From Candidatus Gastranaerophilales bacterium (lineage in GTDB: Bacteria; Cyanobacteriota; Vampirovibrionia; Gastranaerophilales; Gastranaerophilaceae), in the NCBI GenBank assembly GCA_017402995.1, contig JAFQOV010000024.1, positions 1 through 41,212 on the forward strand: 41,212 nt of DNA. The letters are read 5' to 3'. The translations under genes were made by a program, and so were the position numbers. This document shows positions 40,381 to 41,212 of this stretch, piece by piece (the first letter of the stretch is position 1; every line of letters starts with the position of its first letter). Under the pieces are notes generated by a model. That model was not told the DNA's origin. It saw nothing but the letters and a program-made list of their open reading frames with translations, and made no database searches.

Positions 40381-40451
40381 TTTTTTGCTTGTAATTTTTG
40401 ATTTTGTTGATAGAATTGAATTGTAAGAATTCACAGCGTTAGTGCACACAT

Positions 40452-40523
<72 letters not shown>

Positions 40524-40527
40524 AATT

Positions 40528-40552: not shown

Positions 40553-40925
40553 GTTGAGGGATTCTTACTCATTGTCTTGCAGGGTGAGTATAACCTAACA
40601 GGACTTTTGTGATGGGAGTTTTGTAGAGAAAGTGCCGAGTTTAGGGCAAATGAGGCTAATATATAGTGTTGATATCTGAGGGACAATTTTTGCACTTTCA
40701 TCCCTTTTCTTGCACTATTTTGCACTCATATTTTGTTTTTTTGTCTTTAAACTTGGCTTGAAGTCTTGATATATTTGAATATTACCCTGTGCAATTTTGT
40801 GCAACAAAGTGCAAAAATATTTTATCTTTTAGTTTGATATGTGTCGAAATGTCTCTGAGATTGAGATGCAACAGTTGACTTCTGCCAAGACAAGAGTGAT
40901 GAATGTGTCATAAGGATTTTAAATT
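40553..40925. other. Control region upstream of the transposase gene
   Basis: No gene in 373 bases. It contains the 23-base motif shared with 30128-30150 (here 40571-40593), the six-hexamer array, and TTGACT near 40875 as a possible -35. The left end of a Mu-type element probably lies in here, soon after the tRNA terminator, but I cannot fix its first base. Confidence 0.5.
40686..40818. repeat. Phased TTGCAC / GTGCAA array
   Basis: TTGCAC occurs at 40690, 40710 and 40720. Its reverse complement GTGCAA occurs at 40789, 40799 and 40809. Spacings are 20, 10 and 10, 10 bases. The outermost sites extend to a perfect 13-base inverted repeat (attttt gcacttt 40686-40698 with 40806-40818). The helical phasing suggests a cooperative protein-binding array: repressor operators, transposase end sites or iterons. 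Confidence 0.75.
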
Positions 40926-41212
40926 ATGACAAACTTCACACCAGAAAAATCAAAACAAATAGCACTAGCAAGATTAGATATAATTCATAAATGGCTTGAG
41001 TTTAGGAAGAAATCTCAAAACAAACTTCAAACGGATTATGATTTTGTTAAATTACATAATACTTCAAATTCTCATCTGTTTGAAATTTTAGGTAAAATCT
41101 CTCGTGGAAGTTTACATCGCTGGCATTCAATGCTTAATGAAACAGAAGATTATACAAAACTTTTACCTCAATACAAATATGCAACTGTACGAGAATATCG
41201 TACAGTTCTTAA
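40926..41212 (+). CDS. Mu-type transposase, N-terminal part (cut by window end)
   Basis: The frame is open to the last base (at least 95 codons). AAGGA is nine bases before the ATG. The text MTNFTPEKSKQIALARLDII, then a helix with WLEFRKKSQ, then GKISRGSLHRWHSML and LLPQYKYA, resembles the N-terminal DNA-binding helix-turn-helix part of Mu-like (MuA/rve) transposases. The catalytic DDE domain would lie beyond the window. The tRNA, the terminator and the phased array just upstream agree with the left end of a transposable phage or transposon. Confidence 0.6.
   Translation, partial: MTNFTPEKSKQIALARLDIIHKWLEFRKKSQNKLQTDYDFVKLHNTSNSHLFEILGKISRGSLHRWHSMLNETEDYTKLLPQYKYATVREYRTVL

Follow-up and report, generated by a model that had tools for sequence, protein, structure and literature searches.

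A phased TTGCAC array in the left end of a Mu-type cargo transposon found behind tRNA genes of Gastranaerophilales

Results

The window analyzed here, a stretch of 41,212 nucleotides that makes up one contig (C24) of a 1.7-Mb Candidatus Gastranaerophilales genome, ends within a gene for a MuA/TnsB-type transposase, and because the contig stops at position 41212, this gene is cut after 95 codons. Upstream of it lie six hexamers, three reading TTGCAC and three GTGCAA, arranged as two inverted blocks (Table 1). Comparison with homologous loci places this array within the left end of a cargo-carrying transposon, in which the order of features is the terminus with GGAC-type repeats, the array, a conserved box, a promoter-like sequence, and the transposase ATG at 40926.

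Table 1. Features of the transposon left end and its surroundings in the window
Feature	Position	Strand	Details
tRNA-Met gene ahead of element	40451..40524	+	ARAGORN, Rfam RF00005
Left terminus of element	40589..40608	+	TATAACCTAACAGGACTTTT; homology between unrelated insertion sites begins here
Outer left end	40589..40689	+	About four GGAC/GGC-type repeats; conserved in an alignment of 31 non-redundant left ends
Left block of array	40690..40725	+	TTGCAC at 40690, 40710, 40720; 0/20/30 spacing conserved
Inter-block spacer	40726..40788	.	63 bp; sequence variable, 63-65 bp long in 45 six-site copies
Right block of array	40789..40814	-	GTGCAA at 40789, 40799, 40809
Conserved box TTTGATATGTGTCGAAATGTCTCTGAGATTGAGAT	40833..40867	+	87% mean identity downstream of array; resembles inverted right end
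Putative transposase promoter	40875..40903	+	TTGACT, 17 bp, GATGAA; read from the sequence; alignment keeps TTGA..ATTAATG
Transposase (MuA/TnsB type), N-terminal part	40926..41212	+	Homologues 568-585 aa, rve + Mu-transpos_C; PHROG 310

The hexamers stand exactly where an earlier note on this DNA had placed them, and the outer pair forms, as stated there, a perfect 13-bp inverted repeat (ATTTTTGCACTTT at 40686-40698 and AAAGTGCAAAAAT at 40806-40818); the distance of about 64 bases that it gave between the halves is, as an inner gap, 63 bp in the window. Counted from the symmetry center, the sites occupy a 10-bp lattice with four slots per side, three of them filled on each side. All four left slots are filled in another genome, in the longer stretch (L194) around L165, with TTGCAC at 108, 118, 128, and 138, in a copy without the usual left-end motif. 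The six-site pattern, with at most one mismatch per site, matched once in the window and not at all in 10 shuffled windows.

Across a comparison set of 64 homologous loci from Gastranaerophilales genomes (the named records being metagenome assemblies of Candidatus Gastranaerophilales/Melainabacteria), the array was strongly retained. Six sites, each with no more than one mismatch, were present in 45 loci, 27 of them perfect, and thus the array is not missing from related copies of the element, the observation that the earlier note had singled out as fatal to its proposal. The spacer measured 63 bp in 24 of the six-site loci, 64 bp in 20, and 65 bp in one. Among 37 non-redundant copies, pairwise identity was 97.5% in the hexamers, 76% in the linkers, 91% in the left block, and 85% in the right block, while mean identity was 87% in the downstream box and 55% (median 44%) in the spacer. 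That spacer length is kept and spacer sequence is not suggests a constraint on DNA geometry, and the pattern points to selection acting on the array sites and their spacing rather than on what the spacer reads. The helical phasing and two-half geometry put forward earlier are, hence, strongly supported by this comparison among relatives. Further, a gene-independent DNA-pattern search recovered the left half-array (at most one mismatch) from 49 of the 192 genomes of the order, and a reversed control pattern from none of the 192; together, the shuffles and this control rule out a chance origin of the array. Directly upstream of the half-array, the left-end motif AGTGTTGAGATTTG..GG was found in most of 30 loci inspected, and the handful of matches lacking it are probably fortuitous.

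Several copies carry additional small sequences in this region. A palindromic insert of about 70 bp lies between array sites 2 and 3 in L031, L045, and L074, and small palindromic or miniature inverted-repeat transposable element (MITE)-like inserts occur in the transposase leader, in the left-end region, of L054 and L071. In many copies, the spacer (window 40726-40788 and its homologues) contains a hairpin (GTCACCCTGAACTTGTTTCAGGGTCT) resembling repetitive extragenic palindromes (REP), and a similar sequence also lies between the tRNA gene and the left end in L027. In the leader before tnsB, some copies (for example, L059 and L068) have a short inverted repeat that encloses the ribosome-binding site (GTATGC AAAGGA GCATAC), and a similar leader precedes another small gene in L031 and L042. 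The only conserved RNA above the Rfam threshold in the region was the tRNA.

The alignment of homologous loci has TATAnnnTTTCAGGACAGTT at the same terminus place in nearly all of them, with differing flanking sequence outside it. The left terminus is therefore TATAACC at 40589, which puts the array about 101-225 bp inside the element. The GGAC/GGC-type repeats of the outer left end are candidate transposase-binding sites. The opposite ends, which the earlier note had proposed to search for TTGCAC, read ATCTCAATCTCA.AGATAATTTAATCTTGTTCTGA.TGTTAAATTAYA; no TTGCAC occurs in those identified, and a right end mirroring the left 20-mer was sought and gave no matches, the right end found having a different sequence. 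Since the other end lacks TTGCAC, and the terminus bears its own repeats some 100 bp outside the array, the hexamers do not appear to be ordinary terminal transposase sites, the least favored of the functions named in that note. The array might nevertheless represent inner binding sites of the left end, with terminal recognition by the transposase extended inward, as it travels with the left end and its outer site is joined, in several relatives, to a GGAC motif resembling the end repeats. We consider this unlikely, given the right ends and the different outer repeats just described, and given that the inverted right block is unlike end-binding arrays.

The Mu-type identity of the transposase, already suggested in the earlier note, is supported by its match to PHROG 310 (E 8e-82). 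In intact copies, the operon encodes the transposase (568 aa, rve + Mu-transpos_C), an AAA+ ATPase (226 aa), gene 3 (167-185 aa), and gene 4 (about 135 aa, with a helix-turn-helix [HTH]), followed by cargo; a DDE transposase of this domain composition followed by an AAA+ ATPase is the arrangement of MuA-type transposons. The copy in genome G005 spans about 21.7 kb. Its cargo, read on the near-identical L029, includes glutamine synthetase and an indolepyruvate-decarboxylase-like enzyme, to which glutamate synthase parts and NadE-, DapF-, and DapL-like proteins may be added, as recognized from sequence only; the Hachiman defense genes HamA/HamB lie beside the right end within this cargo (L121). 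Among the open reading frames (ORFs) of the G005 copy, none was noticed to encode a phage structural protein, and viral contigs contained no relative of the query fragment. Pfam and NCBIfam searches of the eight proteins after the L029 left end, rather than of whole elements, found no TnsA, TniQ, or Cas. Flank repeats were seen at two junctions only, 19 bp (CCCTCTCGAAAAATGCTCA) and 25 bp (ATTTTCGCCGTTTTTTAGTRTTGAG), belonging to the elements L121/L111 (G005:C4) and L192, with one of the cases involving nested insertions; both are far longer than the 5-bp target duplication of Mu. In the right flank of the G005 element, about 95 bp of a tRNA-Lys tail are duplicated.

Genes 3 and 4 are the candidate binders of the array, because their DNA-binding regions are, like the hexamer, nearly invariant. 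Specifically, the N-terminal 50 residues of gene 3 scarcely vary and are joined to either of two alternative C-terminal versions (alignment A1; L029:12377-12877 and homologues), which suggests domain swapping between a constant N terminus and two exchangeable core-binding domains. A structural model of gene 3 (pLDDT 90) matches core-binding domains of the lambda-integrase type, with an N terminus matching small winged-helix-type DNA-binding proteins. Gene 4 is a near-invariant HTH protein (alignment A2), predicted to fold as an HTH plus a long helix, and matches PHROG 756, annotated as DNA-binding protein/terminase-small-like.

The fold of gene 3 raises the question of whether the array is a site at which a tyrosine recombinase resolves cointegrates. 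Sites like that of Tn4430 combine several inverted and direct binding motifs, as the array does. Further, most counterparts of gene 3 in distant relatives exceed it in length, reaching 562 aa; many of them have a catalytic region, and one of the longer ones matches Phage_integrase. However, gene 3 itself has no catalytic domain in the loci at hand (full elements were not exhaustively searched) and so is not an active tyrosine recombinase as it stands, and by our own reading, the usual first catalytic Arg is replaced in most of the longer homologues. The spacer has no conserved crossover sequence, and 10-bp steps are ill-suited to two half-sites flanking a 6-8 bp overlap. We thus regard a resolution site as highly improbable.

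Tandem arrangements of the element separate the array from the transposase gene. Behind tRNA-Met in L191, L192, and L193, several units follow one another, each opening with a left end, the array, and the box, and continuing with a different gene, which we read as a 332-aa RhuM-like ORF or a 737-aa restriction-endonuclease-like ORF. The transposase is in the last unit of L191 and L192, between which two cargo units are swapped in order, and the box is followed by different promoters in different units. As cassettes without a transposase gene carry the array, it is part of the left end and more than an operator of that gene. Remnants of earlier left ends lie between the cassettes, which looks as though incoming elements insert into left ends already in place.

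These cassettes bear on the main rival explanation, that of a purely transcriptional operator, in which a repressor (gene 4 or gene 3) on the six sites loops the DNA and silences the transposase operon, transposition itself being independent of the array. The array ends about 60 bp before the putative operon promoter, and the conservation and predicted fold of gene 4 would suit such a repressor. In addition, type V-K CRISPR-associated transposons (CASTs), another group inserted behind tRNA genes, code for small proteins that repress their transposition genes (PMC9938897). Yet the promoters and cargo genes that follow the array in the cassettes are unrelated ones, the left end being attached to the array in every case, and the relatives with GGGATA or TGAGAA arrays that are described below yielded no gene 4. 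We judge this explanation possible but the less probable one. The repressor operator and the Mu-like enhancer named in the earlier note both remain, with the cassettes lacking tnsB favoring a role in cis within the end, as an enhancer or in its architecture, over that of a pure transposase operator.

The element of the window lies 65 bp behind tRNA-Met, and this location is typical. Among 51 assessable copies, 44 follow a same-strand tRNA or tmRNA gene at a distance of 26-204 bp (median about 70), against a chance expectation of about 1.1%; the elements, in the window and in L026-L090, are inserted in a single orientation, and their targets comprise ten tRNA kinds and tmRNA (in L075, the tRNA was added by Rfam). 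Given that near-identical elements are found behind different tRNAs, the element is not tied to a single tRNA identity. Two simple targeting rules were rejected. First, the spacer cannot be a guide matching the target tRNA, as the near-identical L028, L036, L041, and L044, with nearly the same spacer, lie behind tRNA-Ala, tRNA-Leu, tRNA-His, and tmRNA. Second, the range of distances given above excludes a fixed distance between tRNA and end. A search for empty sites via the neighboring glutaredoxin gene found no adjacent tRNA in the 11 relatives scanned.

Discussion

On balance, our results lean toward a reading in which the array, as part of the extended left end of this Mu-type element, serves as an assembly site akin to an operator/enhancer, probably a landing pad for the transposition machinery or for its repressor. 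In such a scheme, an element-encoded DNA-binding protein would bind each TTGCAC, presumably cooperatively, with a single protomer at each turn of the helix, all on the same face of the DNA, and the two inverted blocks, about six turns apart, would pair through looping or bridging. The resulting complex could then organize the transposase on the ends, repress early transcription, or both, much as the operator/enhancer of Mu does.

The Mu enhancer, or internal activation sequence (IAS), is the textbook case of such a site, and the resemblance extends to both position and composition. As in Mu, where the enhancer lies between the end sites and the transposase gene (PMC3362531, PMC3820752), the array is situated between the left-end transposase sites and a MuA-family transposase gene, and it likewise consists of multiple copies of a short phased motif upstream of an early promoter. 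The geometry differs: here, two inverted blocks separated by 63-64 bp follow a strict 10-bp lattice, as opposed to CTTTT motifs about 15-16 bp apart in Mu. The binders differ as well, in that the Mu site is bound by the I-alpha domain of MuA (the enhancer-binding domain; PMC3362531) and by the repressor c; in the window clade, the transposase lacks that domain, and a search for a c-like repressor found none. The array appears to work like a Mu-type operator/enhancer by analogy, although strict membership in that class fails for want of a domain equivalent to I-alpha.

In more distant relatives, where the transposase is about 40% identical (over the N-terminal fragment), analogous two-block phased arrays lie upstream, built in part from other hexamers: TGGGATA, with four to five direct copies at 11-bp lattice positions and a further two inverted (L125/L126); TTGAGAA/TGAGAA and interleaved TGGGATA sharing a 10-bp lattice, together with two inverted copies (L135); and TTGCA copies plus inverted GTGCAA (L129). 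Neither the GGGATA arrays (11-bp steps) nor the TGAGAA arrays (10-bp steps) were matched in 50 shuffles each. The transposases of these relatives have an extra N-terminal domain that is absent from the window clade, as the PHROG 310 match, starting at position 5 in L125 and at position 99 in L029 of the window clade, also reflects. This domain aligns with MuA I-alpha (W-V-x3-K ... GGK ... SL), with an hhalign E of 7e-4 and a probability of only 26%, and the array of the distant relatives may be bound by the N-terminal domain of the transposase itself. L125, L153, and L154 combine a transposase, an AAA+ protein, a degenerate tyrosine-recombinase-like protein, and a Mor-like gene, and in view of the Mor-like genes of L125 (there below the Pfam cut-off) and L153, they are probably Mu-like prophages.

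Several of our observations count against an enhancer-like role. The alignment to I-alpha has a low hhalign probability, and most other divergent relatives showed no clear array in the scan used. Within the window clade, the transposase has no domain equivalent to I-alpha, and the remainder of the element loci yielded none either, except for a second, distinct transposase of L063; a literal Mu mechanism cannot apply without it and is unlikely in this clade. The search for a repressor gene that the earlier note had suggested, alongside the location of the other end, identified none for the array, and a c-like repressor or domain was not found in the loci, where genes 3 and 4 have other DNA-binding folds. 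Finally, the cassettes would also fit a shared transcriptional control of the cargo genes.

Other transposon families share individual traits with this element. Like V-K CASTs, it combines a transposase with an AAA+ protein, carries cargo, and has a regulatory region adjoining the left end (PMC9938897), but none of the operon proteins examined matched Cas or TniQ, the array does not constitute a CRISPR, and the targets comprise many tRNA kinds and tmRNA. Tn6022 offers a second parallel in its target selector TnsF, an operon protein whose tyrosine-recombinase core-binding domain is not accompanied by a working catalytic one (PMC10293859); the longer homologues of gene 3, with their altered catalytic region, recall it. 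In contrast to the zinc fingers of TnsF, gene 3 has an N-terminal winged helix; no TniQ was seen here, and Tn6022 targets comM, whereas the present element targets the region behind tRNA and tmRNA genes. A role of gene 3 as target selector is only an analogy. More speculatively, the element may represent a Mu-derived, non-viral transposon family that homes behind tRNA and tmRNA genes of many kinds with a winged-helix/core-binding protein as its selector. Its looping left-end array would be inherited in geometry while the hexamer changes between clades, and as a portable module, it would let transposase-less cassettes be mobilized in trans and stacked behind one tRNA gene. We offer this as a tentative proposal.

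In the open-access full-text literature, which is incompletely covered, we found no description of the element or the array. The findings describe an enhancer-like array that is widespread in one order of gut bacteria, strictly kept in its geometry and changing in its motif between clades, and that persists in a clade whose transposase lacks the I-alpha domain expected to bind it. With this retention in the absence of the expected binding domain, together with the change of motif, comparative analysis can test how an enhancer and its binder evolve. Further, oriented insertion behind ten tRNA kinds and tmRNA would add a type of tRNA-homing transposon outside CRISPR guidance, and the host element is a possible tool for safe-site integration.
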